Below, piece after piece: positions 8,084 to 24,900 of a stretch of DNA of 38,399 bases. The translations under genes and the position numbers were made by a program. The stretch's first letter is position 1, and each line of letters opens with the position of its first letter. Below the pieces are notes generated by a model. It ran no database searches. It was not told where the DNA came from and worked only from the letters and a program-made list of their open reading frames with translations. Origin of the DNA: Planctomycetota bacterium (lineage in GTDB: Bacteria; Planctomycetota; UBA1135; UBA2386); NCBI GenBank assembly GCA_016794565.1, contig JAEUHQ010000101.1, positions 1 through 38,399 of the forward strand. The letters are read 5' to 3'.

Positions 8084-9040
8084 ATGCAACTGATCGAAGG
8101 CCTCTCGGCGCTGCTGGATCTCGACCTGGTCGCGCTGCACGGCGAGACCCCGGCCGGGCGTTCGGTGGTCGCCGTCGGCGTGTTCGACGGCGTGCACCTC
8201 GGCCACCAGCGCCTGCTGCACCAGCTGCTGGAGATGTCGTCGGCGCTGCAGGCGATGCCGACGGTCGTCACGTTCGCGAACCACCCGGATCAGGTGCTGC
8301 ACGGCGAGGCGCCGCCGCTGCTCGTGAGCGTCCCGCACCGGCTGAGGCTGCTCCGGCGCGCTGGCGTGCAACGCCTCGTGCTGCTGCGGTTCGAGCCGCG
8401 CCTGCAGAACATGACGCCGCGCGAGTTCGCGGTGCAGGTGCTGGTGCAGCGACTGCGCGCGCGCGGCCTGCTGCTCGGCTACGACTCGGCCCTCGGCAAG
8501 GATCGTGCGGGCACGCCGCAGTGTTTCCGCGACCTCGGCGGCGAACTCGGCTTCGAAGTGCGCACCGGCGCGCCGTTCGAGGTCGACGGCCAGCCGGTGT
8601 CTTCGACCGCGATCCGCTCGGCGATCGCGCGCGGCGACCTGACGCTCGCCCACCGCTACCTCGGCCGCTACCCCGGCGCGATGGGCACGGTCGTGCACGG
8701 GTCCGCGCGCGGGCGCACGCTCGGTTTCCCGACCGCGAACGTCGCGATCGAAGATGCGGTCGTACCGCCGCCCGGTGTCTACGCGGTCGAAGCGATCGTC
8801 GACGGCGCGACGCACCGCGCCGTCGCCAACCTCGGCACGCGGCCGACCTTCGCGGTCGACCGTGCCCCGATCGTGCTGGAGGTCCACGTGCTCGACTTCG
8901 ACGGCGATCTCTACGGGCGCGAGCTCGAGATCACGTTCCGCCACCGGCTGCGCGAAGAACGGCGCTTCCCCGACGCCGGAGCGCTGCGCGAACAGATCGC
9001 ACGCGACGTCGCCGCGGCGCGCGAACACCTCAAGGCGTGA
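8084..9040 (+). CDS. ribF: Bifunctional riboflavin kinase / FMN adenylyltransferase
   Basis: 318 residues, the usual RibF length. The N-terminal FMN adenylyltransferase domain carries the nucleotidyl-transferase phrase GVFDGVHLGHQ at 32-42 and the later SSTAIRSAIARGD segment near 170-185. The C-terminal riboflavin kinase domain starts near residue 187 and has the phosphate-binding motif GRTLGFPTANV at about 210-220. It makes FMN and then FAD from riboflavin. The flavin supply is relevant to the several flavoproteins in this window, although that link is only circumstantial. Its 3' end overlaps the convergent Cfa gene by 11 bases. Confidence 0.95.
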   Translation: MQLIEGLSALLDLDLVALHGETPAGRSVVAVGVFDGVHLGHQRLLHQLLEMSSALQAMPTVVTFANHPDQVLHGEAPPLLVSVPHRLRLLRRAGVQRLVLLRFEPRLQNMTPREFAVQVLVQRLRARGLLLGYDSALGKDRAGTPQCFRDLGGELGFEVRTGAPFEVDGQPVSSTAIRSAIARGDLTLAHRYLGRYPGAMGTVVHGSARGRTLGFPTANVAIEDAVVPPPGVYAVEAIVDGATHRAVANLGTRPTFAVDRAPIVLEVHVLDFDGDLYGRELEITFRHRLREERRFPDAGALREQIARDVAAAREHLKA

Positions 9041-10307
9041 CGGACCGGGCACCGCCGGCGCGTTCGAAGCGGAGCTGACAAACCCCGAGATTGCGCTCGC
9101 GGAAGCCTGCTTCGCAGTACGCGAAGTAGAAGTCCCACGCGCGGAGCAGCGCGTCGCCGCCGCGTTCGCGGAACGCCCCCGGGTGCATGTGCATCGCCGC
9201 ACGCCAGCGCGCGAGCGTCGTCGCGTAGTGGTCGCCGAAGTCCACCATCTGCACGAGGCGGAAGTCCGTGTTCGCCGCCGCCGCCGCGACGATCGCCGCG
9301 ACCGACGGAATGAAGCTCCCCGGGAAGACGTGCCGCTTCACGTAGTCGACGCTGCGAACGGCTCGCGCGTAGTGCTGATCGCGGATCGTGATCGCCTGGA
9401 GTCCGAAGAGGCCGCCCGGACGAAGGCGGGCGGCGGCGACCCGGAGGAAGGTCGGCAGCCACTTCGCGCCAACCGCTTCGATCATCTCGCACGACAGGAC
9501 CTTGTCGAACGTGCCCTCGAGATCGCGATAGTCGCGCTGCAGCACCTGGACGGAATGCGCGACGCCGGCCGTGCGGGCACGCTCCTTCGCCGCCGCGAAC
9601 TGGTTCTTCGAGATCGTCGTGGTCGTGACGTGGGCCCCGAACTCGCGCGCCGCACACACCGCGAGGCTGCCCCAGCCCGTGCCGATCTCGAGGAGGCGAT
9701 CCCCGGGCGCGAGATCGACGAGACGGCACAGACGCCGCAGCTTCTCGCGTTGCGCGTCCTCGAGCGAGCAGTCGGGTCCCGCGAACCATGCCGACGAGTA
9801 GGTCATCGTCGGATCGAGGAACTGCGCGAACAGCTCGTCGCCGAGGTCGTAGTGCCCGGCGATGTTCCTCGCGCTGCCGATGCGCGTGTTGTCGCGGAGC
9901 CAGTGACCTGCGCGCAGCAGCAGACGGCGAGGCAGCGACAGGAGACCGCGGTCGACGGCGAGCAGCACGTCGCGATCGGCGACGAGGAGTCGGAGGAGAC
10001 GCACCAGGTCCGGCGACGACCAGTGCCCCGCGACGAACGACTCCCCGGCACCCACGCCGCCCGCGCAGGCGAGGCTCGTCCAGAACTCCGGCGATGCGAC
10101 CTCGAGTTCGACCGTGCCGAGTCGACCGCGCACATCGCCGAGTTCGAGCGTGGCCCCTCGTTCGCGCAGGCGGATCGAGCCCGACCGCAGCGTCGCGAGC
10201 CGCTCGAGCACGCGGCGTCGCAGCGCACGTTGCCACCACCGCGGCCTCGAATCCGCGGACTCGCGCGGCCGCGACGCCGCGCCCGCGATCAGGATCGCAT
10301 CACCCAT
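9030..10307 (-). CDS. Cyclopropane-fatty-acyl-phospholipid synthase family methyltransferase (UfaA1/Cfa type)
   Basis: 425 residues. The N-terminal lipid-binding domain (to about 140) is followed by the Cfa signature GHYDLGDELF (151-160). The SAM-binding loop is LLEIGTGWG (205-213), with the acid SCEMIEAVG (272-280). The substrate and bicarbonate-site region includes FPGSFIPS (328-335) and FGDHYATTL (357-365). The C-terminal motif YFAYCEAGF is at 394-402. These are full-length, apparently active Cfa features. The family transfers a methylene or methyl group from SAM to an unsaturated acyl chain of a membrane phospholipid. It is last of four overlapping genes and starts 8 bases inside the DUF1365 gene. 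By synteny with the mycobacterial sigK locus it corresponds to UfaA1. The product could be a cyclopropane, a methyl-branched or a methylene fatty acid; the sequence cannot decide. Confidence 0.9.
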   Translation of the reverse strand: MGDAILIAGAASRPRESADSRPRWWQRALRRRVLERLATLRSGSIRLRERGATLELGDVRGRLGTVELEVASPEFWTSLACAGGVGAGESFVAGHWSSPDLVRLLRLLVADRDVLLAVDRGLLSLPRRLLLRAGHWLRDNTRIGSARNIAGHYDLGDELFAQFLDPTMTYSSAWFAGPDCSLEDAQREKLRRLCRLVDLAPGDRLLEIGTGWGSLAVCAAREFGAHVTTTTISKNQFAAAKERARTAGVAHSVQVLQRDYRDLEGTFDKVLSCEMIEAVGAKWLPTFLRVAAARLRPGGLFGLQAITIRDQHYARAVRSVDYVKRHVFPGSFIPSVAAIVAAAAANTDFRLVQMVDFGDHYATTLARWRAAMHMHPGAFRERGGDALLRAWDFYFAYCEAGFRERNLGVCQLRFERAGGARSVTP

Positions 10308-11061
10308 GGGACCTCCTCTTCTCGGGATGCACGTGGAACGGCGCCCGCTTCCACCAGAGTCGCAGCGCCTCGAAATGGATGCGCGCGATCACGGCGACGG
10401 ACATCACCGGGTACCGCAGCGCGGTGAGCAGCAGGTTCGCCGTCGTCCAAGGTCGCCGGCGCAGAGCCAGCGTGGCATCGAAGACGGTGCGACCGGCGAC
10501 GACGTTCCGCATGTGCACACCGAGCGCCTCGCCCGGCGGCGACAGCGTCCAAACGTAGTCCTGCTCCATCGGCTGGAAGGGGCTCACGTGGAACTCCTTG
10601 CCGAAGCGTGCGCGCAGCGCGCGTCGCCGGGCATCCGCGGCGACGACGTGGTGATGGCGCTGCCGCCACGGCGTGTTCGTGATCTCGGCGAGCGCTGCGA
10701 CGAGACGGTTCGCGGCGTCGAAGCAGTAGTAGATGCTGACGGGGTTGAACGAGAATCCGAACGCCCGCAGGTTGGTCAGGACGCGCACGGGACCGTCGGG
10801 CCGCACGCCCGTCTGCTCGGCGACCGCGTCGCGCACGGCATCGGCCAACGGACGGTCCGCGGGCCCGAAGAAGTCGCGTCGGCGGAACCGGAGCGGCGCC
10901 GGGCGCCGCGCCGACCACCACCAGCGTCCGGCGAACGCCGCGTCCACTTCGTCGAGGTCGAGATAGACGAAGTACAGCGGCATGCGGAAGCGGTGAGGGA
11001 CCGCGTCGTGACGGCGATGCCGCACGCTCCCCGCATAGATCGCCGAGTACTGCACCGTCAT
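10300..11061 (-). CDS. DUF1365 family protein
   Basis: 253 residues from the ATG at 11061, which overlaps the stop of the FAD oxidoreductase as ATGA. The protein shows the DUF1365 pattern: N-terminal YAGSVRHRRHDAVPHRFRMPLY, central LRAFGFSFNPVSIYYCFD (about 98-115), FGKEFHVSPFQPM (about 153-165), and a C-terminal basic helical region. The family's biochemical role is not established. It is repeatedly found between a FAD-dependent amine-oxidase-like protein and a Cfa methyltransferase, and is therefore thought to take part in making modified fatty acids. It is probably membrane-associated. Its position and overlap on both sides imply translation coupling with its neighbours. Confidence 0.9.
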   Translation of the reverse strand: MTVQYSAIYAGSVRHRRHDAVPHRFRMPLYFVYLDLDEVDAAFAGRWWWSARRPAPLRFRRRDFFGPADRPLADAVRDAVAEQTGVRPDGPVRVLTNLRAFGFSFNPVSIYYCFDAANRLVAALAEITNTPWRQRHHHVVAADARRRALRARFGKEFHVSPFQPMEQDYVWTLSPPGEALGVHMRNVVAGRTVFDATLALRRRPWTTANLLLTALRYPVMSVAVIARIHFEALRLWWKRAPFHVHPEKRRSHG

Positions 11062-12347
11062 CTCGTCGCCCCGTCGGTGGCGCGAACACCGAAGTCCGCC
11101 GCGACGCGCAGCGCCGACTGGACGGCATCCTCGTGGAACCCGAAGCCACACCACGCGCCGCAGAACCAGACGCGGTTCGTGCCGTTGACTGCGGCAACGC
11201 GAGCCTGCGCGGCGACGCCGCGCGCGTCGAACACTGGATGGCGGTAGACGAAGCGGCGCAGCACTTTCGCGGGGTCGATCGCATCCGGACGGTTCAGGGT
11301 GACGCAGTGCACGGTCGGCCCCGGGAGCCCCTGCAGGATGTTCATGCAGTAGGTCAGCGTCGCACGACCGTCGCCTCCGCCGAGGTGGTAGTTCCACGCG
11401 GCCCAGGCGCGCCGGCGCGCGGGCAGCAGCCGCGTGTCGGTGTGCAGGACGACGTCGTTCGCCTGGTACGGGATCGCGCCGAGGAGGTCGCGTTCGCACG
11501 CGTCCGCGTCGGCGAGCAGCCGAAGGGACTCGTCGCTGTGCGTCGCGATCACCACGGCGTCGAACTCCGCGACGTGCCCGGCTTCCGTGCGCAGCCGGAC
11601 GCCGTTCGCAGTGCGTTGGATCGAGCGCACGGGATCGCCGGTGTGCACACGATCGGCGAACGGTCGCACGAGCGGTCCCAGGTACGAACGTGACCCGCCG
11701 ACGACCGTGAACCACCGCGGCCGACCGCGAACCTGCAGCATCCCGTGGTTCTCGAAGAAGCGGACGAAGAACCGCGCGGGCATCGCCCGCAGTCGACGCG
11801 GCTCCGCGGACCAGATCGCCGCCATCATCGGCACGAGGTAGTGCTCGGCGAACGCGCGGCCGTAGTGCCCGCTGTCGACGAGGTCCCCGAGCGTCGCGTC
11901 GGTGTCGCGGAGGGACGGCGCGAGGCGGTGGAACCGCAGGATGTCGCGCAGCATGCCCCAGAAGCGAGGCCGCAGGAGGTTGGTGCGCTGCGCGAACAGC
12001 TGCCCGAACGAACTGCCGTTGTATTCGAGCCCGGTCGCCTCGTCGCGAACGCTGAAGCTCATGGTCGACGGCCGAAGCGCAACGCCCAGTCGCTGCAGCA
12101 GGGCGAGGAAGCCGGGATACGTGCGGTCGTTGCACACGATGAACCCGGTGTCGACCGCGAGCGGACTGCCGTCGTCGCCGGGCACCTCGACGGTGTTGGT
12201 GTGCCCACCCACGCGCGTGTCGGCTTCGTGCACGACGACATCGTGAACACGGCACAGGCGCTCCGCGGCGACGAGGCCGGCCACGCCGGCGCCGACGATC
12301 GCGATCCGCTTGCGCCCGGGGCCGAGCAGCGCGCCCGCGCGGCTCAT
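11058..12347 (-). CDS. FAD-dependent oxidoreductase (amine-oxidase/desaturase-like) of the Cfa-DUF1365 cluster
   Basis: 429 residues. The dinucleotide-binding motif GAGVAGLVAAE lies at 19-29, followed by the acidic ribose-binding end HEADTRVGGHTNTVEV and a substrate and second-FAD region (VVIATHSDESLRLL). The C-terminus contains WFCGAWCGFGFHEDAV, typical of this subgroup. Homologues sit beside DUF1365 and Cfa genes in many bacteria, including the mycobacterial sigK locus and the furan-fatty-acid genes of Rhodobacter. There they act on acyl chains, but the reaction is not certain for this protein. The desaturase stop and this start overlap (ATGA at 12344-12347). Confidence 0.9.
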   Translation of the reverse strand: MSRAGALLGPGRKRIAIVGAGVAGLVAAERLCRVHDVVVHEADTRVGGHTNTVEVPGDDGSPLAVDTGFIVCNDRTYPGFLALLQRLGVALRPSTMSFSVRDEATGLEYNGSSFGQLFAQRTNLLRPRFWGMLRDILRFHRLAPSLRDTDATLGDLVDSGHYGRAFAEHYLVPMMAAIWSAEPRRLRAMPARFFVRFFENHGMLQVRGRPRWFTVVGGSRSYLGPLVRPFADRVHTGDPVRSIQRTANGVRLRTEAGHVAEFDAVVIATHSDESLRLLADADACERDLLGAIPYQANDVVLHTDTRLLPARRRAWAAWNYHLGGGDGRATLTYCMNILQGLPGPTVHCVTLNRPDAIDPAKVLRRFVYRHPVFDARGVAAQARVAAVNGTNRVWFCGAWCGFGFHEDAVQSALRVAADFGVRATDGATR

Positions 12348-13249
12348 GGCCGCAGCCGCCGTTCACCGGTGCGCGCACGCGACGGCAGGGGCCGCAGGTC
12401 GTCGACGAGACCGAGCGCCGCCATGACGCGCAGGCCGTAGTAACAGAGGTCGATCTCCCACCAGCGGAACCCCTGCCGCGCCGCACCGGGCGACCAGTGG
12501 TGGTTGTTGTGCCAGCCCTCGCCGAGCGTCAGGAGGGCGAGCACGAACGAATTGCGGCTCTGGTCGCGCGTCGGCCAGGCACGCCGGCCGAGCAGGTGGC
12601 CGAGGCTGTTGACGGACGACGTCACGTGGAAGAGCACGATCGTCGACACGCAGAAGCCCCAGACCGCCATCTGCAGCGCGTTCGTGCCGAGTTCGGGCGC
12701 CGCGTGCTCGAGCCACGCGCCGAGCCCGAGCAGGGCGACGAGCAGCGCCACCGGCACCACCCGGTCGTGCCGGTCGAGCCACCGGAGTTCGGGGAACGCC
12801 GCGAGGTCGCGCACCGCGGCGAGGTCGGTCGCGACGTGCTGCCCCGATGCGAACCAGCCGAAGTGCGCCCACAGGATGCCGTGTGCATGGGGCGAGTGCG
12901 CGTCCCGTTCCGTGTCGGCGTGGCGATGGTGGTTGCGATGGTGTGCAGCCCACCACAACGGGCCGCGCTGCACGGCCGAGGCCCCGAGCAGCGCGCCGAG
13001 GAACTGCACGACGCGACCTGCCCGGAAGGCACGGTGCGAGAAACAGCGGTGGTAGAACGCCGTGATCCCGAACATGCGCAGGAGGTAGAGCGCCACCGCC
13101 GTTCCGACGGCCACCGGACTCCAGCCGACGACGAACACGAGGCCGCACGCCGCGTGCATCAGGACGAACGGCCACACGCGCCGCCAGCGCACGGCTCGGT
13201 CCCCCGCCGCGGACGATGGGACGGCTTCTGCGGTGGCGAGTTCGGTCAC
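12344..13249 (-). CDS. Acyl-CoA/phospholipid fatty acid desaturase (delta-9 type)
   Basis: 301 residues using the GTG at 13249. An ATG at 13321 is possible but lies inside the inverted repeat and adds a low-quality leader. The three di-iron histidine clusters of membrane desaturases are present in order: HRCFSH (67-72), HHRNHH within residues 103-110, and HNNHH (247-251). Four hydrophobic stretches fit two membrane hairpins. The enzyme uses O2 and an electron donor to introduce a cis double bond, the substrate needed by Cfa-type methyltransferases. It is first in a four-gene overlapping operon. The mycobacterial sigK locus, as I remember it, has no desaturase at this place, so it is an addition here. 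Confidence 0.9.
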   Translation of the reverse strand: MTELATAEAVPSSAAGDRAVRWRRVWPFVLMHAACGLVFVVGWSPVAVGTAVALYLLRMFGITAFYHRCFSHRAFRAGRVVQFLGALLGASAVQRGPLWWAAHHRNHHRHADTERDAHSPHAHGILWAHFGWFASGQHVATDLAAVRDLAAFPELRWLDRHDRVVPVALLVALLGLGAWLEHAAPELGTNALQMAVWGFCVSTIVLFHVTSSVNSLGHLLGRRAWPTRDQSRNSFVLALLTLGEGWHNNHHWSPGAARQGFRWWEIDLCYYGLRVMAALGLVDDLRPLPSRARTGERRLRP

Positions 13250-13301
13250 GCGGGTCTCGGGTCGCTGCGGTGAGGCGGTGGGTTCGCACGACGGCGGCAC
13301 C

Positions 13302-13324
13302 CGGATGCACGCCCCGTGCATCCG
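13302..13324. promoter_or_regulatory. Perfect inverted repeat, candidate operator between divergent lipid operons
   Basis: Arms CGGATGCACG (13302-13311) and CGTGCATCCG (13315-13324) are perfectly complementary around a 3-base CCC spacer. The site is 29 bases upstream of the DUF1295 ATG and 52 bases upstream of the desaturase GTG, where a dimeric regulator could control both operons. Half-sites of similar sequence recur before the fasciclin gene. No DNA-binding regulator that would use it is encoded nearby, apart from the ECF sigma factor. Confidence 0.5.
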
Positions 13325-13353
13325 ACCCGACGCGCGGAACGAACCGCCGCCGC

Positions 13354-14160
13354 ATGCCCGGAGCCCCATCGCCCCTCGCCCTCGGCATCGCGGCCACGGC
13401 ACTCGCCGTCGCCTTCGTGGGGCTCCACCGCCGGCAGGTCCGCACCCGGAACGCCACTTCCGTGGACGCAGCGTGGGCGATCGCGATCGGACTGTGCGGC
13501 GCCTGGTTCGCGCTCGTCGCCGAGGGCGCGACCGCCCAGCGCACCCTCGCGGCCGCGATGGCCGTCGCGTGGAGCTCGCGCCTGTCGATCCACCTCCTGC
13601 GCGACCGGGTCATGCGGTGCGACGCCGAAGACGGTCGCTACGCGGCGATGCGTGCGCACTGGGGCGCCTCGGCGAACCGGCGGTTCTTCTGGTTCTACCT
13701 CGCGCAGGCCGGCGCGGCGCTGGTGTTCGCGCTGCCGTTCGCGTGGGTCGCCGCGACTCCGCACGCCGTGCTCGCGTCGCAGTGGTGCGGCGCGGCGCTG
13801 GCGGTCGCCGCGACGTGTGCGGAGGCGGCAGCCGACGGGCAGCTCGCGGCACACCGCGCCGATCCTTCGCAGCGCGGCCGCACGTGCCGCCGCGGCCTCT
13901 GGCGGTGGAGCCGACACCCCAACTACTTCTTCGAGTGGCTCACGTGGTGCGGCGTCGCGGTGGTCGCGCACCCGTTCGCCGGCTGGTGGGCAGCCCTTCA
14001 CCCGGCAGTGATGTTCGTCCTGGTGCGCTTCGTCAGCGGCGTGCCGTTCGCCGAACGGCAGGCGCTGAAGAGCCGCGGCGAGGACTACCGCCGCTACCAG
14101 CGGGAGACGAACACCTTCGTCCCATGGCTCCAGCGGCGCGCCGTGGACAGCGTGCGATGA
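13354..14160 (+). CDS. DUF1295 membrane protein (steroid 5-alpha-reductase/isoprenylcysteine-methyltransferase-like fold)
   Basis: 268 residues from the ATG at 13354. There are about six hydrophobic segments. The C-terminal signature GLWRWSRHPNYFFEWLTWCG, followed by a terminal RGEDYRRYQRETNTFVPWL, is characteristic of DUF1295 and the related steroid 5-alpha-reductase and ICMT folds. These enzymes use NADPH or SAM at a membrane-embedded active site. In the mycobacterial sigK locus a DUF1295 gene sits beside ufaA1, and a reductase role on a methylene or methyl-branched acyl intermediate has been proposed. That role is inference here. Its TGA overlaps the ATG of the next methyltransferase by four bases, so the two are coupled. 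It is divergent from the desaturase operon. Confidence 0.88.
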   Translation: MPGAPSPLALGIAATALAVAFVGLHRRQVRTRNATSVDAAWAIAIGLCGAWFALVAEGATAQRTLAAAMAVAWSSRLSIHLLRDRVMRCDAEDGRYAAMRAHWGASANRRFFWFYLAQAGAALVFALPFAWVAATPHAVLASQWCGAALAVAATCAEAAADGQLAAHRADPSQRGRTCRRGLWRWSRHPNYFFEWLTWCGVAVVAHPFAGWWAALHPAVMFVLVRFVSGVPFAERQALKSRGEDYRRYQRETNTFVPWLQRRAVDSVR

Positions 14161-15194
14161 GCACCCGCACCGAGCGATGGCTCGAACGCGGCCACGTGCC
14201 GGACTGGCTGATCCGAATCGGCATCCGGCGGCTGCTGCGCGCACGGCTCGTTCGGGAATGCGCCGACGACCCGGCGCGCGCCGCCGAGCGGCTGGAACGC
14301 TGGATCGCCGAGTGCAACCGCTCCCCGATCGCGATCGCGACCGACGCCGCGAACACGCAGCACTACGAAGTGCCCGCCGCGTTCTTCGCGACGGTGCTGG
14401 GCACGCACCGGAAGTACAGCAGCGGGCTCTGGACCGCGGGCACGCAGGACCTCGACGGCGCGGAGGCGGCGATGCTCGCTCTCTCGTGCGAACGCGCGGG
14501 CATCGCCGACGGCATGCGCGTGCTCGACCTCGGCTGCGGCTGGGGTGCGATGTCGCTGTGGATCGCGCAGCGCTTCCCGAACTGCGAAGTCGTCGGGGTC
14601 GGCAACTCGGCGAGCCAGCGATCGGACGTGCTCGCGCGCGCCCGCGGGCGCGGCCTCGCGAACGTCGAGATCGTGACCGCGGACGCCAACACGTTCGTCG
14701 CGCCGGGCCGCTTCGACCGGATCGTGTCGATCGAGATGATGGAGCACACGCGCAACTGGCGGGCGCTGCTCGCACGAGCCGCGTCCTGGCTCGAGCCCGC
14801 GGGCCGCATGTTCGTGCACGTCTTCACGCACCGCTCGGTCGGGTATCCGTTCACGGAGGACGGCGACGGCGACTGGATGGCACGTCGGTTCTTCACCGGC
14901 GGCCAGATGCCGGCGGACGCACAGATGCTGCGATTCCAGGATCACCTGCGCGTCGAGGCCCACTGGCGCGTCTCCGGCGAGCACTACCGTCGCACCGCCG
15001 AGGCCTGGCTCGCGAACTTCGACCGCCATCGCGCCGACCTCGAGCCCGTCCTCCGCGCCACGTACGGCGAGCGGGCCGTGGCGATGGGCAACCTCTGGCG
15101 CGTCTTCTTCCTCGCGTGCGCCGAGCTCTGGGGCTTCGCCGGCGGACGCGAGTGGTTCGTGTCGCACTACCGGCTCGCGCGCCGCGATGGATGA
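14157..15194 (+). CDS. Second Cfa-like SAM methyltransferase (coclaurine N-methyltransferase-like subgroup)
   Basis: 345 residues, shorter than the first Cfa paralogue because it lacks the full N-terminal lipid-binding domain. It has QHYEVP (68-73), the SAM loop VLDLGCGWG (122-130), the acid motif SIEMMEHT, and a C-terminal region FFTGGQMPADAQMLRF with HYRRTAEAWLANFD. This version is closer to coclaurine N-methyltransferase-like and UfaM-type proteins than to true cyclopropane synthases, which suggests a methyltransferase of different substrate choice. The ATG overlaps the DUF1295 stop (ATGA, 14157-14160). The convergent B12-sensor gene ends 23 bases downstream. Confidence 0.87.
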   Translation: MSTRTERWLERGHVPDWLIRIGIRRLLRARLVRECADDPARAAERLERWIAECNRSPIAIATDAANTQHYEVPAAFFATVLGTHRKYSSGLWTAGTQDLDGAEAAMLALSCERAGIADGMRVLDLGCGWGAMSLWIAQRFPNCEVVGVGNSASQRSDVLARARGRGLANVEIVTADANTFVAPGRFDRIVSIEMMEHTRNWRALLARAASWLEPAGRMFVHVFTHRSVGYPFTEDGDGDWMARRFFTGGQMPADAQMLRFQDHLRVEAHWRVSGEHYRRTAEAWLANFDRHRADLEPVLRATYGERAVAMGNLWRVFFLACAELWGFAGGREWFVSHYRLARRDG

Positions 15195-15217: not shown

Positions 15218-16273
15218 TCACACGAGACGGAGCAGCCGGCGTGCCGCGGCGACTGCACCCGCGGCATCGAGCGCACCCGCGTCCGCACCGACGACCGACC
15301 ACAGGTCTTCGGCGACGCCGAACGGCTCCCCGCCCACGAGGATCGGCACGCGGCGCGGCGGACCGCCCGAACGGATGCGCGCGATCGTCGTCACCAGCGA
15401 TCCGAGCTGCAGGGTCAGGGTCGCCGAGATCGCGATCAGGTCGAACGCACGATCCTGCAGCAGCCACTCGACGTCGCCCGCCGGCATGTTGCTGCCGAGG
15501 TTGTGCACCGCGAAGCCGGCGAGCTGCAGCCGCTGCGCCACGAGTCGCACACCGAAGTCGTGCAGGTTGCCGCCGACACCCATCGTCAGCACCCGCGGCG
15601 CGGACGCGGCCGGTCGCGGCAGACGTTCCTGCAGCATCCAGAGCGTGCGGTCGACGATCGACGAACCGTAGTGCTCGTCCGCGATCGGGATCTCCGCCAT
15701 CAGCCACATGCGCCCGGCCTCGCGCTGCGCGGGGACGATCACGTGGTCGTGGATCGCTTCGACGGCCACGCCGCGATCGAGAGCGCCGCGAACGAGACCG
15801 ATGGCGTCGTCGCCCCGGCCCTCGAGGATCGAGAGCAGGAAGTGCCCCGCGAGATCGCCGTGCGGCGAGGAACGCGACAAGTACGACGGGATCTCCAGTG
15901 GAACCCGCTCGACGCCGGCGCGTGCCGCGTCGACGTGCGGGAGCACGGCCGCCGCCGCCGCGACGGGCAGTTCGTCCGCGAGCGCCGCGCGGATCGCATC
16001 GAGGTTCGCCGGCAGCCAGTCCGCGGTCACGCCGCGGTGGTGCAGCGCAACCGCGTACCACGCGACGGCGTGCCGCAGCAGCGCGGGACGGTCGACCGCC
16101 ACCGACTCGGCCACGTGCAGGATCCGCACTTCGGTGTCGCTCGTCGGGTCGCCGAAGCCCGCCGGCAGGCCGTTCGCGAGCAGGTCGGGGCGAACACGCT
16201 CCATGTGCCGCAGCGCGGCGGCCGCGTACGCGCGGGAGGAGCCGCGCAAGAGGCCGGCAGCGAGACCGTTCAT
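15218..16273 (-). CDS. Stand-alone cobalamin-binding CarH/LitR-like sensor without DNA-binding domain
   Basis: 351 residues from the ATG at 16273 (a GTG at 16282 is the alternative). The N-terminal ~115 residues are helical and contain no MerR-type helix-turn-helix. Residues about 130-215 look like the four-helix cap over B12 and contain W190-x9-E200-H201, the W-x9-EH motif that marks adenosylcobalamin photoreceptors of the CarH group. Residues about 226-350 form the Rossmann B12 fold with GNLHDFG (lower ligand His 238; the usual Asp or Glu two residues earlier is Asn 236), LGSNMP (259-264) and VGGEPF (313-318). CarH from Thermus has a His directly after the Trp (the light-adduct ligand); here it is Leu 191. 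The gene sits inside a sigK-like lipid locus. A light or B12-level sensor acting through protein contacts is my inference. A methylcobalamin-binding protein of another kind is the alternative. Confidence 0.82.
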   Translation of the reverse strand: MNGLAAGLLRGSSRAYAAAALRHMERVRPDLLANGLPAGFGDPTSDTEVRILHVAESVAVDRPALLRHAVAWYAVALHHRGVTADWLPANLDAIRAALADELPVAAAAAVLPHVDAARAGVERVPLEIPSYLSRSSPHGDLAGHFLLSILEGRGDDAIGLVRGALDRGVAVEAIHDHVIVPAQREAGRMWLMAEIPIADEHYGSSIVDRTLWMLQERLPRPAASAPRVLTMGVGGNLHDFGVRLVAQRLQLAGFAVHNLGSNMPAGDVEWLLQDRAFDLIAISATLTLQLGSLVTTIARIRSGGPPRRVPILVGGEPFGVAEDLWSVVGADAGALDAAGAVAAARRLLRLV

Positions 16274-16330
16274 GGAACTCACGCGAAGGTTGTAAGGGTC
16301 GGGACGCGACGAGCTCAAGGCTGCGGCGCG

Positions 16331-16396
16331 TTGCATCCGTTCGCCGACGGGCCACGAACCGATGCACACGCGGCGAACGTTCTGTCGCCGTGCATG
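16331..16396. promoter_or_regulatory. Three GTGCATC-like half-sites in the B12-sensor/fasciclin divergent region
   Basis: TTGCATCCG (16331-16339), GATGCAC (16371-16377) and GTGCATG (16390-16396) resemble halves of the perfect repeat at 13302-13324. The last two form an inverted pair separated by 12 bases. The region is the roughly 150-base divergent space between the B12-sensor and fasciclin genes. Seven-base matches are expected several times by chance in 38 kb, so only the location makes this worth noting. Confidence 0.3.
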
Positions 16397-16423: not shown

Positions 16424-17329
16424 ATGATCCGCCTCCCCGCCGTCACCTTCTTCACCCTCGTCTGCGCGACTTCGATCGCGATCGCCCAGGACGGGCGCAG
16501 TCCGAAGGGCCACGTCGTCGACGTGGCCAGCCAGGCCGGCCGTTTCTCGACACTCGTCGCCGCCGTGAAGGCCGCCGGCCTCGCCGAGACCCTGTCGGGC
16601 AAGGGCCCGTTCACCGTCTTCGCGCCGACCGACGAAGCGTTCGCCAAGCTCGGCAAGGACGCGATCGCCGACCTGCTGAAGCCCGAGAACAAGCAGAAGC
16701 TCGTCGCCGTGCTCACCTACCACGTCGTCGGCGCGAACCTGCCGGCGGCGAAGGTCGCGGGCCAGAAGTCGCTCGCCACGCTGCAGGGCCAGTCGCTCGC
16801 GGTCGCCGTCGAAGGCAACGCCATCAGGGTGGGTGGTGCGAACGTCACCGCCGCCGACGTGGCCGCGGACAACGGGGTGATCCACGTCGTCGACACCGTG
16901 CTGATGCCGCCGTCCGAACCGAATCTCGTCGAAGTCGCGACGAAGGCCGGCAGCTTCGGGACGCTGCTCACCGCCGCCAAGGCCGCGGGTCTCGCCGACA
17001 CGCTCGCAACCGGGGGTCCGTTCACCGTGTTCGCGCCGACCGACGCCGCGTTCGCGAAGCTCGGCAAGGACACGATCGCCGATCTGCTGAAGCCCGAGAA
17101 CAAGGGAAAGCTCGTGTCGATCCTGAAGCACCACGTGGTCGCCGGCAAGGTCATGGCCGCGGACGCGATGAAGCTGAAGCAGGCGAAGACCATCGGGGAC
17201 ACCGCCCTCTCGCTGCAGAGCGATGGAACCTCCCTGACGGTCGGCGGCGCGAAGGTCGTGACGCCCGACGTCGCCGCGAAGAACGGAGTGATCCACGTCG
17301 TCGACGCAGTCATCCTGCCCGCGAACTGA
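16424..17329 (+). CDS. Secreted protein with two fasciclin (FAS1) domains
   Basis: 301 residues from the ATG at 16424, which gives a clean signal peptide (MIRLPAVTFFTLVCATSIAIA, cut before QDG). An upstream ATG at 16394 is less good. Two FAS1 domains follow, about 30-160 and 165-300. Each has the motif GPFTVFAPTD, then AFAKLGKD, LLKPENK, a histidine-containing HVV strand and the C-terminal NGVIHVVD. The two copies are nearly identical in these motifs, so they arose by internal duplication. FAS1 proteins are extracytoplasmic adhesion or lipid-binding proteins. In mycobacteria the FAS1 proteins MPT70 and MPT83 are the main targets of SigK, and the ECF sigma gene starts 11 bases downstream here. 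Confidence 0.92.
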   Translation: MIRLPAVTFFTLVCATSIAIAQDGRSPKGHVVDVASQAGRFSTLVAAVKAAGLAETLSGKGPFTVFAPTDEAFAKLGKDAIADLLKPENKQKLVAVLTYHVVGANLPAAKVAGQKSLATLQGQSLAVAVEGNAIRVGGANVTAADVAADNGVIHVVDTVLMPPSEPNLVEVATKAGSFGTLLTAAKAAGLADTLATGGPFTVFAPTDAAFAKLGKDTIADLLKPENKGKLVSILKHHVVAGKVMAADAMKLKQAKTIGDTALSLQSDGTSLTVGGAKVVTPDVAAKNGVIHVVDAVILPAN

Positions 17330-17340
17330 CGCAACCCACC

Positions 17341-17991
17341 ATGCCCGACGCGTCGGCGTTCGCCGCGGTGGCGCCGATGCGCGTCTTGATCGACCACGAT
17401 CTCGCCCCTGTAATGCGCGCTCCCGATCGGAAGCGCATGCCGTTGCCCCTGCTCCCAGAGATCGCCGCGGGCGACCCCGCCGCCGTCGACGCCTTCCTGA
17501 AGCGCCATCAGAACATGGTCTTCGGGCTCGCGCGCCGCTTCTGCCGCTCGGCCGAGGACGCCGAGGACGCCACGCAGGAGATCTTCGTGGAGGCGTGGAA
17601 GAGCGCCGGCCGCTTCGACGCGACCGCGGGCAGCGAGACGACGTTCCTCATGACGATCGCGCGTCGGCGCCTCATCGATCGAGCGCGCCGGCAGGGACGC
17701 CGCCCGCCGACCGCGCTCCTGGAGGACGCGGGATCTCTCGCCGAGCAGCCCGGCGCGGATCGCGCGGAACTGCACGAGGAGGTGCGCCTCGCGAAAGAAG
17801 CGCTCGAACAGTTGCGCCCCGAACAGCGGCACGTGCTCGACCTGGCGCTCGGTCAGGGCCGCACGCACCACGAGATCTCCGCCGCGATCGGCATCCCGCT
17901 CGGAACCGTGAAGAGCCACGCGCGACGCGGCCTCATCCGCCTGCGGGAGATGCTGGGCGTCGAGGACCGGAACGAGGGAGGCACCCCGTGA
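17341..17991 (+). CDS. ECF sigma factor, SigK-like (ECF19 group)
   Basis: 216 residues from the ATG at 17341. Internal ATGs at 17377, 17413 and 17437 are possible, and the last gives MPLPLLPEIAAGD, closer to the usual ECF start. Region 2 is NMVFGLARRFCRSAEDAEDATQEIFVEAWKSAGRFD and the region 4 helix-turn-helix is LRPEQRHVLDLALGQGRTHHEISAAIGIPLGTVKSHARRGL. A sigma-3 domain is absent, as expected. Assignment to the SigK type rests on its neighbours (RskA-like anti-sigma, fasciclin, Cfa/DUF1365/DUF1295 genes) more than on sequence. It probably drives these genes under stress once released by the anti-sigma factor. Its stop overlaps the next start as GTGA. Confidence 0.9.
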   Translation: MPDASAFAAVAPMRVLIDHDLAPVMRAPDRKRMPLPLLPEIAAGDPAAVDAFLKRHQNMVFGLARRFCRSAEDAEDATQEIFVEAWKSAGRFDATAGSETTFLMTIARRRLIDRARRQGRRPPTALLEDAGSLAEQPGADRAELHEEVRLAKEALEQLRPEQRHVLDLALGQGRTHHEISAAIGIPLGTVKSHARRGLIRLREMLGVEDRNEGGTP

Positions 17992-18719
17992 GCGAACCCG
18001 ACCCGCGGCTCGAGGCCCTCGCGGAGGCGATCGTGTTCGCGCACGAAGCCGAAGCGGCGCTGCCGGCCCCCGGCGGCGGCGTGCTCGCGCTCGAACGCAC
18101 CGCGGCGCTCGCCGCCGCGGCATTCGCCGGTCCTGTCGCCGTGCCCGAGCGGCTGCAGCGCCGTCTCGCCGCCGCGGGTCTCGCGTTCTGCGCGGAGCGC
18201 GCGAGGGAACTGGCGAAGGACGGCGCAGGGCGAACCGCACCGCGCGGCTCCGCCCGCGGCATCCCGATGTTCCTGCTCGGCGTCGCCGCCGGCATCGTGC
18301 TGTGGTTCGTGCTCCGCGCGGACGCCGAATTGCCGATCGAACGCCAGCGCGACACGCTGCTCGCGACGCGGAACGCGACGCGCTTGCAGTGGAAGGCGGG
18401 ACCGAGCCCGCTGCGCGGGCTGGTCGAAGGGGACGTCGTCTGGAGCCACGACTCGCAGCATGGCTTCCTGCGCTTCCGCGGCCTGCCGCCGCTCGACGAC
18501 GACCACCGGTTCCAGCTGTGGATCGTCGACGGCAACCGCGACGGCGCGCCCGTCGACGGCGGACTGTTCTCGGTCGCCGATGCCGGTGCGGACACGATCG
18601 TGCCGATCCGCGCCGCGCTGCCGATCGGCAGCGCCAAGGCGTTCGTGGTGACCGTCGAACCGCGCGGTGGCGTCGTCGTGTCGAAGCAGGAACACGTCGT
18701 CGCGATCGCGGGCCTCTGA
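17988..18719 (+). CDS. RskA-like transmembrane anti-sigma factor
   Basis: 243 residues from the GTG at 17988, four bases overlapping the sigma gene and preceded by GGGAGG. Residues 1-90 form the cytoplasmic sigma-binding part. The His-x3-Cys-x2-Cys zinc motif of many anti-sigma domains is not present. One transmembrane helix spans about 93-109. The periplasmic part has the RskA C-terminal pattern FLRFRGLPPLDDDHRFQLWIVDGNRDG and VVTVEPRGG. RskA holds SigK at the membrane and releases it after regulated proteolysis triggered by a periplasmic, possibly redox, signal. No Cys is visible in the periplasmic part, so the disulphide-type switch known for SigK would have to work differently. Confidence 0.88.
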   Translation: MSEPDPRLEALAEAIVFAHEAEAALPAPGGGVLALERTAALAAAAFAGPVAVPERLQRRLAAAGLAFCAERARELAKDGAGRTAPRGSARGIPMFLLGVAAGIVLWFVLRADAELPIERQRDTLLATRNATRLQWKAGPSPLRGLVEGDVVWSHDSQHGFLRFRGLPPLDDDHRFQLWIVDGNRDGAPVDGGLFSVADAGADTIVPIRAALPIGSAKAFVVTVEPRGGVVVSKQEHVVAIAGL

Positions 18720-18808: not shown

Positions 18809-18884
18809 GGGCAGATAGCTCAGTTGGTAGAGCACAGCACTGAAAATGCTGGGGTCGCCAGTTCAACCCTGGCTCTGCCCACCA
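18809..18884 (+). tRNA. tRNA-Phe (anticodon GAA), CCA encoded
   Basis: The 76-base cloverleaf has acceptor strands GGGCAGA (18809-18815) and TCTGCCC (18874-18880), D-loop AGCTCAGTTGGTAGAGC, anticodon stem CAGCA/TGCTG with loop CTGAAAA (anticodon GAA), and T-loop GTTCAACCC. The discriminator A is followed by an encoded CCA (18882-18884). Confidence 0.97.
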
Positions 18885-20713: not shown

Positions 20714-21916
20714 TCACACCTCCGCGGCGGCGCGGCGCGCCAGCCCGGACAGGTTCATCGCGAGGCGGTGACGCACGAACGGCAGCCGTCCCATCACCGC
20801 GAGGCGCACGTTGCGCAGCGCGCGCCCGACGCGCCCCTTCGCCAGCGCCATCCGCGTGAGTCCGGCGCTCAGCGCCAGCACCTTCTGCGCGGCCGGTCGG
20901 CGCAGTTCCTCGTAGCGCTCGAGATCGGCGTCCGAAGCGCGACCGGCGACGACGTCGGCGAGCATCGCGCCGAGCACGCACGCGTCGACGAGGCCCGTGT
21001 TCATGCCCTGGCCTCCGGCCGGGCTGTGCACGTGCGCCGCGTCGCCGACGAGGAAGAAGCGCCCGCTGCGGTAGCGGTCCGCGACGCGATGGTGCACGCG
21101 GAAGCGCGAGCCCCAGACGACCTCGCGAACGCGCCCGCGCGCGAGCCGGGGGCCGCGCTCGTCCAGGAGCGCCTGCACGTCGGCGACGGTCGGCTCCGGC
21201 GGCGCATCGGCCATCGTCGCGACGATGCGGAAGCGGCCGTGCGGCAGCGGAGCGACGACCACGAGGCCCGCCGGCGAGAAGAACAACGACACCTCGTCGC
21301 GTCCTTGCGGCCAGTCCATCGTCACGTCGGCGAGCACGAACGACTCCTCGTAGGCCTCGCCGGAGAAGCCGATCCCGGCCGCCGCCCGTACGACGCTGTG
21401 CATCCCGTCCGCGCCAACCACGTAGCGCGCGAGCACGTCGCGGTGCCCTTCGCCGGAGTGCACGGTCGCGAGCACGCCTTCGGCCGAGTCGACGAGGGAC
21501 GTCACGGTGCAGCCGCGCCCCACCGTTCCGCCCGCGGCGGCGAGTGCCTCGCCGAGAACCGCTTCCGTCTCGTCCTGCGGCAGCATCAGGAGACCGGCGC
21601 GCCGCGTCGGCAGCGCGTCGAACGGGATCGACAACAGTGCTCGATCGCGGTCGCGCACGGCAAAGCGGTCGAGCCAGAGGCCGCGCGCGACGAGTGCGTC
21701 CGCGACGCCGATCCGGTCCAGCACCTCGAGGGTGTGGGCGTGGATCACCGCGGCGCGGGAGGTGTTCTGTCCCGCGGCGAGTTTGTCGACGACGATCGTG
21801 CGGACACCGGCGCGGACGAGGGACGTCGCGAGGGCGAGGCCTGTCGGCCCGGCCCCGACGACGAGGACGTCGGCCCGTTCGGGGCCGCCGACGAGGGTTC
21901 GATCGTGAGCGCTCAC
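20714..21916 (-). CDS. FAD-dependent aromatic-ring monooxygenase (PheA/TfdB-type)
   Basis: 400 residues from the GTG at 21916, which overlaps the pump stop as GTGA and has AGGAGGTGAAG just upstream. FAD motifs are present: GAGPTGLALATSLVRAGVRTIVVDK near residues 19-43, the DG motif YVVGADGMHSVVRAAAG, and the ribityl-binding GDAAHVHSPAGGQGMNTGLVDA. These are the three diagnostic motifs of class A flavin monooxygenases, which hydroxylate phenols, polyketides and antibiotics (for example tetracycline-inactivating enzymes). Its place behind a drug-type efflux pump suggests modification of a toxic or self-made aromatic compound. That link is inference. The substrate cannot be read from the sequence. 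Confidence 0.9.
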   Translation of the reverse strand: MSAHDRTLVGGPERADVLVVGAGPTGLALATSLVRAGVRTIVVDKLAAGQNTSRAAVIHAHTLEVLDRIGVADALVARGLWLDRFAVRDRDRALLSIPFDALPTRRAGLLMLPQDETEAVLGEALAAAGGTVGRGCTVTSLVDSAEGVLATVHSGEGHRDVLARYVVGADGMHSVVRAAAGIGFSGEAYEESFVLADVTMDWPQGRDEVSLFFSPAGLVVVAPLPHGRFRIVATMADAPPEPTVADVQALLDERGPRLARGRVREVVWGSRFRVHHRVADRYRSGRFFLVGDAAHVHSPAGGQGMNTGLVDACVLGAMLADVVAGRASDADLERYEELRRPAAQKVLALSAGLTRMALAKGRVGRALRNVRLAVMGRLPFVRHRLAMNLSGLARRAAAEV

Positions 21917-24900
21917 GACTTCACCTCCTCGACGAGCGACGGCTGGCCCTGCCATCCGCCGCCGAGCGCCGCGTAGAGCCGCACGACCGCGGTGAGGCGA
22001 TTGCGCTGCGTGCGCGCCAGGTCGAGCTCGGCCGCGAACAGCGCCCGCTGCGCGTCGAGCACGTCGAGCTGACCCGTGAGCCCTTCGCGGAAGCGCCGGT
22101 CCGCGAGTTCGTGGGCGCGGCGCAGGTGCGTCACGAGGTCCGCCTGGTGCGCGCCGACGGCGGCGATCTGCCGGTGGTCGACGAGTGCGTCCTCCACTTC
22201 GCGGAACGCCACCTGCACGGCCTTCTCGAAGCGGTGCACCGCCTGCAGTGCACGCGCGGCCGCCGCGTCGTACGCCGCGTCGCGGCGCCCGGCGTCGAAC
22301 CACGGGATCGAGATCGCCGGCCCGAAGCGCCACACCCGGGCGGGACCGCTGAACAGGTCCGACAGCTGCGAGCTCTCGCTGCCGTAGGACGCCGAGAGGG
22401 CGATGTCGGGGAAGCACGCAGCCCACGTCTCGTCCGTGCGGGCGTTCGCGGCCTCGAGCCGGAGCCTCGCCTCCTGCAGGTCCGGCCGCCGCGCGAGCAG
22501 CGTCGAAGGCAGGCCCGGCGGCACGGCGGGCGGCACGGGAACGCTCGCGAGGTCGCGGTTGCGCAGGATCGGCCCGGGGTTCCGCCCGAGCAGCACCGAG
22601 AGGCGGTTCTCGGTCTGCGCGGCGCGGCGCTCCAGGTCGGGGAGCAGCGCGGCAGCGGACTCGACCTCACCGGCGGCACGCGCCACCTCGAGCGTCGACG
22701 CGAGATCCTCCTCGTTGCGACGACGCACGAGGAACAGCGACTCCTCGCGGGACGCCAGCGTGCGCCGTGCGACGGCGATCTCCGCGTCCAGTTCGAGCAG
22801 GTCGAACCAGGCCTGCGCGACGTCGCCGATCAGGCTCGTGATCACGCCGCGCCGCGCCCATTCGGTCGCGAGCAGTTCGGCGCGTGCCGCGGCATCCGCG
22901 CTGGCGAGGCGCCCCCAGAGGTCGACGTCCCAGCGGGCCGTGAAGTCCGACTTCCAGATGTTGCCCTCGTTGTCGACACCCGGCGGCATCGCCGGCACCG
23001 ACTTCGTCGAGGCGCGCACGGCGGAGAACGAGTCGGTCTCGTCGAGCGTCGGCCAGCGCGCAGCACCGGCCTGTTCGGCGAGCGCGCGCTGTTCGGCGAC
23101 GCGCGCCGCGGCGACCGCGACGTCGTCGTTCTCCTCGAGCGCGATCGCGATCAGCTCGCACAGCCGTTCGTCGGAGAACAGCTCCCACCAGCCGCGGTCC
23201 GCGAACGACGCCCCCGCATCCGCGTCCGCGCGCCACGTCGCCGGCGACCCGATCGCCGGCTGCTTCCCCTCGGGGGCCGCGCAGCCGGCGAACGTCGCCG
23301 CCGCCAGCAGCAACAGGACCTGCGTCGCGGCACCGGCCGCACGCAGCTTGGCCGTCGCACGAACGGCGCCGGCGATCGCACGGCGCAGCCAGACCAACGG
23401 CGAGAACTTCGTCCGGACGTCCTCGAAGAGCGAGAAGAACACCGGCGTCGCGAGCAGCGTCAGCAGCAGCGAGAGCACCTGGCCGCCGAAGATCACCGAC
23501 CCGATCGCGCGGTTGTCGCCGGAGCCCGTGCCCTTGGACACGAGGAGCGGCACCATTCCCGCGACGAACGCGACGGTCGTCATCAGGATCGGCCGCAGAC
23601 GGTCGCGGTTCGCCTGCAGCGTGGCCTCGAGCAGCGACAGGCCCTGCGCACGCAGCGCGATCGTGTGGTCGACCTGCAGGATCGCGTTCTTCTTCACGAC
23701 GCCGAACAGCACGAGCAGGCCCAGCGCCGTGTAGATGTTCAGCGACTGGCCGAACAGCAGCAGCGACAGAAGCGCGAACGGCACCGTCAGCGGCAGCGCG
23801 ATGAGGATCGTGATCGGGTGGACCCACGACTCGAACTGCGCGGCGAGGATCAGATACATGAAGACGAAGGACAGCACGAACGCGATCAGGAAGTTGAACG
23901 CGGCGTTCGCCATCTCCTTCGACGACCCGGTCACCCCGGTGCGGTAGCCCGCTTCGAGGTTCATCGCGGCGGCCTCCTGCTGCAAGGCCACGACCGCCGT
24001 CTGCTGCGAGTGCCCGGGCGCGATGTTCGCGGTGATGGTGACCTGGCGCCGGCGGCCGAGCCGGTCGATCTGCGCCGCACCCGACGCCTCGGTGAACGTA
24101 GCGACCTGATCGAGGGAGACCGTGCCGTGTTTGCTCGACGGCACGGCCATGCGGGCGAGACCCGCTTCGTCGGTGCGGTCACCGGACTCCGACCGAGCCC
24201 GCACGTCGTAGCGCTCACCGCCCTCGTCGAAGTCGGTGACCTTGTCGCCGCCGACCATGACCCGAAGCGTGCCCCCGATGTCGGCCATGCGCACGCCGAG
24301 GTCGGCGGCCTTCGCCCGATCGACGGCCACGTGCAGCTCGGGCTTGCCGAGGATCAGAGTCGTGTCGATGTCGATAGCGCCGGGGACCTTGCGCAGCGCC
24401 GCGACCAGCCGGTCGGCGTAGCGGCCGAGTTTGTCGGTGTCGGGACCGCTGACGAAGAACGACACGTCCTTGTTCTCCTTGCCGCCGCCGCTGATCGCCG
24501 CGATCGGCGACACACTGGCGCGCAGCTTCTCACCGGCGAACTCGGGCAACACGCGGTCGCGCACGGCCGCCATCACGTCGAACTGCGACGCCTCGCGGCG
24601 ATCGACCGGCTCGAGTTTCACGAACAGGTTCGCGAGGTTCTGCGTGTGCGCATCGTCGTCGCCGACGAACACGACCGCGTAGGCGACGCCGGGGATGCGC
24701 TCGATGCGCTCGCCGATGCGCCCCGCGATCAACTCGGTCTGCTGCAACGACGTGCCTTCGGGCGCGCGGACCTTGACCTCGAACTGCGACTCGTCGTTCT
24801 TCGGCAGGAAGTCCTTCGCGACCGCCTTGCCCAACGGCACGACGGACACGAGCGACAGCACGCACAGGCCGACGATGACCCAGCGATGCGCCATCGACCA

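Follow-up and report, generated by a model that had tools for sequence, protein, structure and literature searches.

A photocobilin-like gene beside a SigK-like sigma/anti-sigma pair in a planctomycete: a candidate light input to an RskA-type switch

Why should a gene for a B12-type light sensor lie next to the genes for an extracytoplasmic function (ECF) sigma factor and its anti-sigma factor? The question is raised by a 38,399-nucleotide stretch of DNA from a Planctomycetota bacterium (contig JAEUHQ010000101.1; here called the window), in which a minus-strand open reading frame at 15218–16273 encodes a 351-residue protein that a first-pass annotation described as a CarH-like B12 photosensor module without a DNA-binding domain. 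Most close relatives keep the sensor gene beside the same sigma/anti-sigma switch, and the sensor therefore probably informs that switch of light. We give an even chance to the specific proposal that this photocobilin-like sensor passes a light signal by direct contact to the adjacent SigK-like ECF sigma and RskA-type anti-sigma pair; it would thereby likely turn on cell-envelope genes.

The sensor protein

The sensor gene and its domains are placed as follows.

15218–16282, minus strand: pcob, encoding the photocobilin-like protein; the start is annotated as ATG at 16273 but is likely the GTG at 16282
15890–16273, minus strand: photoglobin/phycobiliprotein-fold domain, residues 1–128, with D46, W72 and R80 (profile match and fold comparison)
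15647–15838, minus strand: four-helix B12-binding_2 domain (PF02607) with W190, E200 and H201 (Pfam and alignment)
15248–15595, minus strand: B12-binding Rossmann domain (PF02310) with lower-ligand H238 (Pfam)

Both B12 domains score above the Pfam cut-offs (B12-binding_2 at residues 146–209, B12-binding at residues 227–342). In an alignment of 58 sequences, made up of the window protein, 47 of the other homologues listed and ten loci, W190, E200, H201 and H238 are each invariant (58/58) with nine residues separating W190 and E200, so the W-x9-EH motif and lower-ligand His of the first-pass annotation stand as given. Its remark that the His which forms the light adduct of Thermus CarH is replaced here also holds: residue 191, which we take to correspond to TtCarH His132 since that His comes directly after Trp131, is Leu in the window protein, and the column has Leu in 34 and His in 2 of the 58 sequences. 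The cobalamin photoreceptor light signature given in the available text of the SignatureFinder study (GxxW, EH, GxxH and GxxxP) is present in all four elements, as G187..W190, E200-H201, G235..H238 and G260..P264, with G235 in 55/58 sequences and the others in 58/58. The E/DxH motif of photocobilins is replaced by N236-L-H238 (position 236 is N in 41, D in 11 and E in 6 of the 58, and the His is invariant), and we therefore call the protein photocobilin-like only. It is predicted to bind adenosylcobalamin (AdoCbl) as a light sensor, and a gene search found an adenosyltransferase.

There is no Pfam match in the first 140 residues, and the first-pass annotation overlooked the domain that the N-terminal 115 hold. 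In an AlphaFold model of the whole protein (mean predicted local distance difference test score 96.6) the N-terminal 125 residues form a helical globin only, and the absence of a MerR helix-turn-helix follows from this. A hidden helix-turn-helix was considered and is ruled out by two AlphaFold models and fold comparison. The N-terminal third is a globin of the phycobiliprotein type. Its match to the biliverdin domain of the photocobilin SasPcob extends to sequence, fold and two key pocket residues, the equivalents of Asp270 (D46, 55/58) and Trp296 (W72, 58/58). A profile search matches both halves of SasPcob, although a single-sequence search gave a globin match of only 12 bits. By fold comparison both halves resemble photocobilins, and the closest folds of the model are photocobilins (structures SasPcob 8J2W/8J2X and AbDPcob 8J2Y; PMC10979010); the globin match is visible only when the N-domain is folded alone, since the different domain order hides it from a whole-model comparison. 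We suggest that the globin perhaps carries a bilin. In one relative (P0116) the N-domain exceeds the Pfam Phycobilisome cut-off, and this relative may link photoglobins to phycobiliproteins at the sequence level.

With this N-terminal photoglobin fold, photocobilins become the best-matching class, rather than CarH alone or the AerR type that the first-pass annotation also proposed; its assignment to CarH-like B12 modules survives. The window protein shares with photocobilins the B12 four-helix and Rossmann domains, one bilin-type globin, the W/EH signature and the two pocket equivalents, and with SasPcob the lack of a His after the signature Trp (Gln in SasPcob, Leu here). It differs in its N-terminal globin, in NxH for E/DxH, and in an ECF/RskA setting that the available text of PMC10979010 does not describe. 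According to that text, the AdoCbl domain of predicted photocobilins may stand first or last, although in both characterised members it comes before the globin. The architecture of the protein is therefore known already; what is new is the setting of a photocobilin-like gene in a SigK-like locus with fasciclin, ECF, RskA-type anti-sigma and lipid genes. The same text describes the function of standalone photocobilins as less clear, has the standalone SasPcob acting on another protein in trans, and predicts its interaction with STAS, SpoIIE and PP2C-like proteins. CarH/LitR proteins of Thermus and Myxococcus have the AdoCbl light-sensing module, W-x9-EH and lower His in common with the window protein, which, unlike them, has no MerR helix-turn-helix and no His132 equivalent and carries a globin domain instead. 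AerR is not known to have a globin. The AerR/PpaA and AppA-SCHIC proteins differ further in that the partner of AerR, in the available text of PMC10734443, is CrtJ/PpsR and not a sigma pair.

Linkage to a SigK-like sigma/anti-sigma pair

To the right of the sensor gene, and divergent from it, lie genes for a fasciclin protein, an ECF sigma factor and an anti-sigma factor, and to its left lie genes that we treat as lipid genes.

16424–17329, plus strand: secreted-type protein with two fasciclin domains (PF02469, two stretches)
17341–17991, plus strand: SigK-like ECF sigma factor; NCBIfam SigK is its second-best profile at 129 bits, under the curated cut-off of 226, and it is named SigK-like only
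17988–18719, plus strand: RskA-type anti-sigma factor with an N-part of ~90 residues, a single transmembrane segment by hydropathy (91–109) and RskA_C (PF10099, 55.9 bits); the gene overlaps the ECF gene by 4 bases
14157–15194, plus strand: CMAS-type S-adenosylmethionine-dependent methyltransferase (cfa2; profile match)
13354–14160, plus strand: DUF1295 protein (profile match)
12344–13249, minus strand: fatty acid desaturase (profile match)
11058–12347, minus strand: flavin adenine dinucleotide (FAD) amine-oxidase-family oxidoreductase (profile match)
10300–11061, minus strand: DUF1365 protein (profile match)
9030–10307, minus strand: CMAS cyclopropane-fatty-acid-synthase family protein (cfa1; profile match)

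These profile matches bear out the first-pass annotation, which had recognised a sigK-like lipid locus and, next to it, genes for an ECF sigma factor and its anti-sigma factor. Whether related loci keep the same neighbours, a check that it had proposed, was examined in 61 genomes, 31 of which have a photocobilin gene; one locus was taken from each of the 30 besides the window (L and G numbers are our labels for loci and genomes), and an ECF gene was called at >60 bits. An ECF gene lies near the photocobilin gene in 24 of the 30 loci, within ~1.5 kb in 23 and at 7.5 kb in L062; the six without one are L044 (cut at a contig end), L055, L056, L058, L060 and L061. Gene orders vary, the divergent arrangement being the commonest. 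Among 17 further loci from the phylum (matches listed that lay outside the first set and covered at least model positions 7–348; 29–37% identity, several on short contigs), 7 have an ECF gene, and one (L117) has the run fasciclin–ECF–anti-sigma–photocobilin with a 34-base gap. As controls, 20 hand-placed stretches of ~20 kb, drawn from ten of the same genomes, gave one ECF match above 60 bits (69) and no anti-sigma match.

Co-occurrence points the same way. The anti-sigma gene is found in 31/31 genomes with photocobilin (including G033, where the photocobilin gene is a fragment at a contig end, and with a marginal anti-sigma match, E 9e-4 at a contig end, in G010) versus 3/30 without (G040, G041 and G044); Fisher values for this comparison ignore kinship. 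In the window's family both genes are present in 26 genomes and neither in 8, and as those 8 are 65–94% complete some of the absences may be gaps. DUF1365, a lipid-gene marker, is tied to photocobilin less tightly than the anti-sigma gene is. At L162 (G034) the ECF/anti-sigma pair directly adjoins the lipid genes, and the photocobilin gene is on another contig.

In mycobacteria, MPT70 and MPT83 are fasciclin-domain proteins, and CFA, DUF1365, FAD and DUF1295 genes lie near sigK. There too the ECF sigma gene is co-transcribed with that of an RskA-type anti-sigma factor (PMC7509140). The available text of that paper places MPT70/MPT83 among the SigK targets, has the N-terminal part of RskA binding SigK, and states that the signal to SigK/RskA is still unknown; the word photocobilin does not occur in it. 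Unlike mycobacterial SigK, the window's sigma factor falls below the SigK curated cut-off.

Promoters of the locus

Four promoter-like elements were found in the window.

16332–16358, plus strand: TGCATCC-N16-CGAA, upstream of fasciclin–ECF–anti-sigma (motif search)
13283–13309, minus strand: ECF-type motif towards the desaturase/FAD/DUF1365/CFA operon (motif search)
13317–13343, plus strand: ECF-type motif towards the DUF1295/CFA2 operon (motif search)
16289–16319, minus strand: sigma70-like promoter of pcob, TTGAGC-N18-TACAAC; its -10 lies six bases ahead of the GTG, and the pattern recurs in 7/16 gaps

The motif TGCATCC-N15–17-CGAA was noticed while reading the divergent gaps, and the counts were made afterwards. 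It resembles the mycobacterial SigK promoter consensus, CCATCC with CCGAAT. Sixteen gaps between divergent photocobilin and fasciclin genes could be cut out, the window's included. The motif points towards the sigma operon in all 16 (spacer 15–17; Markov-shuffle mean 0.01), and towards photocobilin in only 1 of the same 16. Of the 12 desaturase–DUF1295 gaps, 7 carry it in one direction and 8 in the other, and a looser form is seen in 12 and 10, respectively. It stands ahead of the sigma operon in 19 of the 24 ECF-linked loci (missing at L053, L057, L062, L064 and L065), and at L110 only, ahead of the fasciclin gene, among the 7 ECF-linked phylum loci; it thus marks the window's clade and not the whole group. 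The window's genome holds 12 exact sites versus 1 for a reversed control pattern, and three of the 12 are in this locus. We considered a genome-wide ECF regulon and rejected it, since we judge the promoter position to be clear at the three locus sites only; of the nine others, for which rough open reading frames were the sole guide, one (L068) falls a short way ahead of what may be the start of a membrane-protein gene.

Within the window's clade the sensor gene appears to have a separate, sigma70-like promoter. An element of the form CTTGAG...TWSAAC points towards photocobilin in 7 of the 16 gaps, and in six of those seven an in-frame GTG follows the -10-like element by 6–8 bases (six in the window and 6–8 in L036, L037, L038, L039 and L042; in L063 it is 0 or 6). 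Many relatives in the alignment start three residues earlier, with V or M. Because relatives begin with V in that column, and because of the promoter spacing, GTG at 16280–16282, three codons 5' of the annotated ATG, is the likely translation start. With a -10-like element only six bases before it, this suggests a leaderless photocobilin message.

How the sensor might act

In the simplest account of this arrangement, the light sensor would be made constitutively and would feed into an ECF pathway that regulates itself. In the dark, AdoCbl would hold a head-to-tail dimer via W190 and E200-H201; green light would break the Co–C bond, as would red light if biliverdin is bound in the globin, and the adenosyl group would leave. 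Because residue 191 is Leu, water would be the ligand in the light state, as it is in SasPcob, and the bis-His coordination of TtCarH would not form. The dimer would open and its freed surface would bind the cytoplasmic N-part of the anti-sigma factor, or the sigma factor, and sigma would be released; having no recognised membrane part, the sensor would act on these cytoplasmic targets. Sigma would then transcribe its own fasciclin–ECF–anti-sigma operon and, where they bear the motif, the lipid-modifying genes, and the RskA_C part outside the membrane would remain as a second input. More tentatively, and as something we think somewhat improbable in this full form, a cytoplasmic B12/bilin photoreceptor may directly unlock an RskA-type membrane anti-sigma factor; the SigK-like pathway would then be a gate with two inputs, light inside the cell and an envelope signal outside it. 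Contact signalling, which the first-pass annotation also raised, is plausible, and the link to the sigma/anti-sigma pair is conserved; the kinship to partner switches that it suggested is conjectural.

Streptomyces LitR acts by transcription. Light-driven release or induction of an ECF sigma factor has precedents in CarQ/CarR and LitS, and CarR is a membrane anti-sigma factor (PMC8156234); in the available text of that paper, however, CarQ–CarR responds through singlet oxygen and plasmalogens and not through a B12 protein touching the anti-sigma factor. The available text of PMC9758184 reports that UfaM is light-induced and that in Pseudomonas a LitR-type gene region includes a gene for an FAD oxidoreductase, findings in keeping with a remodelling of lipids in the light. 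In the literature searched we found no link between a SigK/RskA-type pair and either a photocobilin or a B12 photoreceptor; the gene-neighbourhood results of the photoglobin paper (Schneider 2022) lie outside this coverage and are its main gap. If the contact reading is right, the protein would have no predecessor known to us among B12 photoreceptors in acting through protein contact on an ECF sigma factor, and it would be a first identified input to a SigK-type pathway. The locus brings together the function of standalone photocobilins and the signal of SigK/RskA in one short conserved gene group, so both puzzles could be addressed with purified proteins and a reporter. The contact reading, if true, would also add a direct protein-contact link between B12 photoreceptors and alternative sigma factors, and would supply optogenetics with a small sensor/sigma/anti-sigma set.

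Several observations limit this reading. Heme oxygenase (PF01126) was found in none of the 31 photocobilin genomes (PF10615 was found in 5), so the bilin of the globin may be a different one or one taken up from outside, or the globin may hold none. Full-length globin-B12 homologues of 33–38% identity occur in other neighbourhoods at L055, L056, L058, L060 and L061. Finally, the lipid operons are not supported as a universal part of the regulon, since the motif is usually absent where they are unlinked from photocobilin. The exact motif lies within 450 bases upstream of such operons in G002, G050 (spacer 15), G059 (spacer 17) and G029 (where it falls within the adjacent desaturase gene), and G006 has a T variant in both directions; within that distance none was found at G005, G008, G013, G014, G021, G027, G031 or G034. 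Among photocobilin-free genomes the lipid-operon motif is present in G041, which has the anti-sigma gene, and absent from G007, G032 and G043; the lipid loci of G001 and G049 end before the promoter. Five genomes of genus g9 (G021, G008, G027, G029 and G031; L153–L157) have an unlinked lipid operon without the motif in its divergent gap and keep the motif at the fasciclin–ECF operon, an apparent regulon rewiring.

The photocobilin-like protein might instead be an output or feedback part of the ECF regulon, with sigma switched from outside via RskA_C and the sensor tuning some other process. This might be expected from L053, L054, L057 and L059, where its gene follows the ECF and anti-sigma genes on the same strand at estimated gaps of 2, 14, 18 and 5 bases, respectively (a fasciclin gene comes first in L053 and L059, and the exact motif precedes the run in L054 and L059), from L064 and L065, where it ends the lipid gene run opposite ECF–anti-sigma, and from L043, L056 and L060, where the photocobilin gene has the exact motif in its own upstream region (222 bases ahead in L056 and 101 in L060). 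We nevertheless regard it as unlikely: the window's clade has the sensor's own promoter and the motif in the sensor direction in a single gap, and anti-sigma factors and sensors too are encoded as operon members. Equally unlikely, in our estimate, is a sensor of cobalamin supply (AdoCbl bound or not), or a light-blind corrinoid protein, that signals to the pair. Asn at 236 in place of the acidic residue is in keeping with it, as are the lack of a biliverdin source in the genomes searched and the fact that the light response is only predicted; yet the invariant W190, E200 and H201 have counterparts in SasPcob and CarH that hold the adenosyl group across the dimer, and the bilin-pocket Trp is likewise invariant.

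Less probable again is direct action on the lipid enzymes (CMAS, desaturase and FAD oxidoreductase), the sigma genes being merely neighbours. An FAD oxidoreductase gene lies near the sensor gene in 13/30 loci and 2/17 phylum loci, and the L064 and L065 runs fit here as well, but sigma genes are nearby more often (24/30 and 7/17). Within the family, moreover, DUF1365 occurs in G001, G007 and G032, which have neither photocobilin nor anti-sigma, and goes undetected in G011 (73% complete), G016, G020 and G033 (56%), which have both, whereas the anti-sigma gene is never parted from photocobilin. A corrinoid methyl-transfer protein of the MtbC/MtgC type is very improbable and is rejected on profile cut-offs and gene context, for although MtgC and MtbC are the best NCBIfam profiles (59 and 50 bits) and one source names some relatives MtbC1, these scores are far under the curated cut-offs (370 and 350), no scanned neighbour was called a cognate MtbB/MttB-type methyltransferase, the closest folds are photocobilins, and the invariant light signature and globin are not known from that family.

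Elsewhere in the window, Rfam gave no cobalamin riboswitch at the gathering threshold, and its sole match is a tRNA gene (18809–18881, plus strand) directly downstream of the anti-sigma gene. A minus-strand frame at 21913–26448 (1511 residues) encodes a complete resistance-nodulation-division permease (ACR_tran, 5–1008) and continues in the same frame into an outer-membrane efflux protein (two OEP stretches); it looks like a fusion of permease and outer-membrane factor and has an internal lipobox-like segment.
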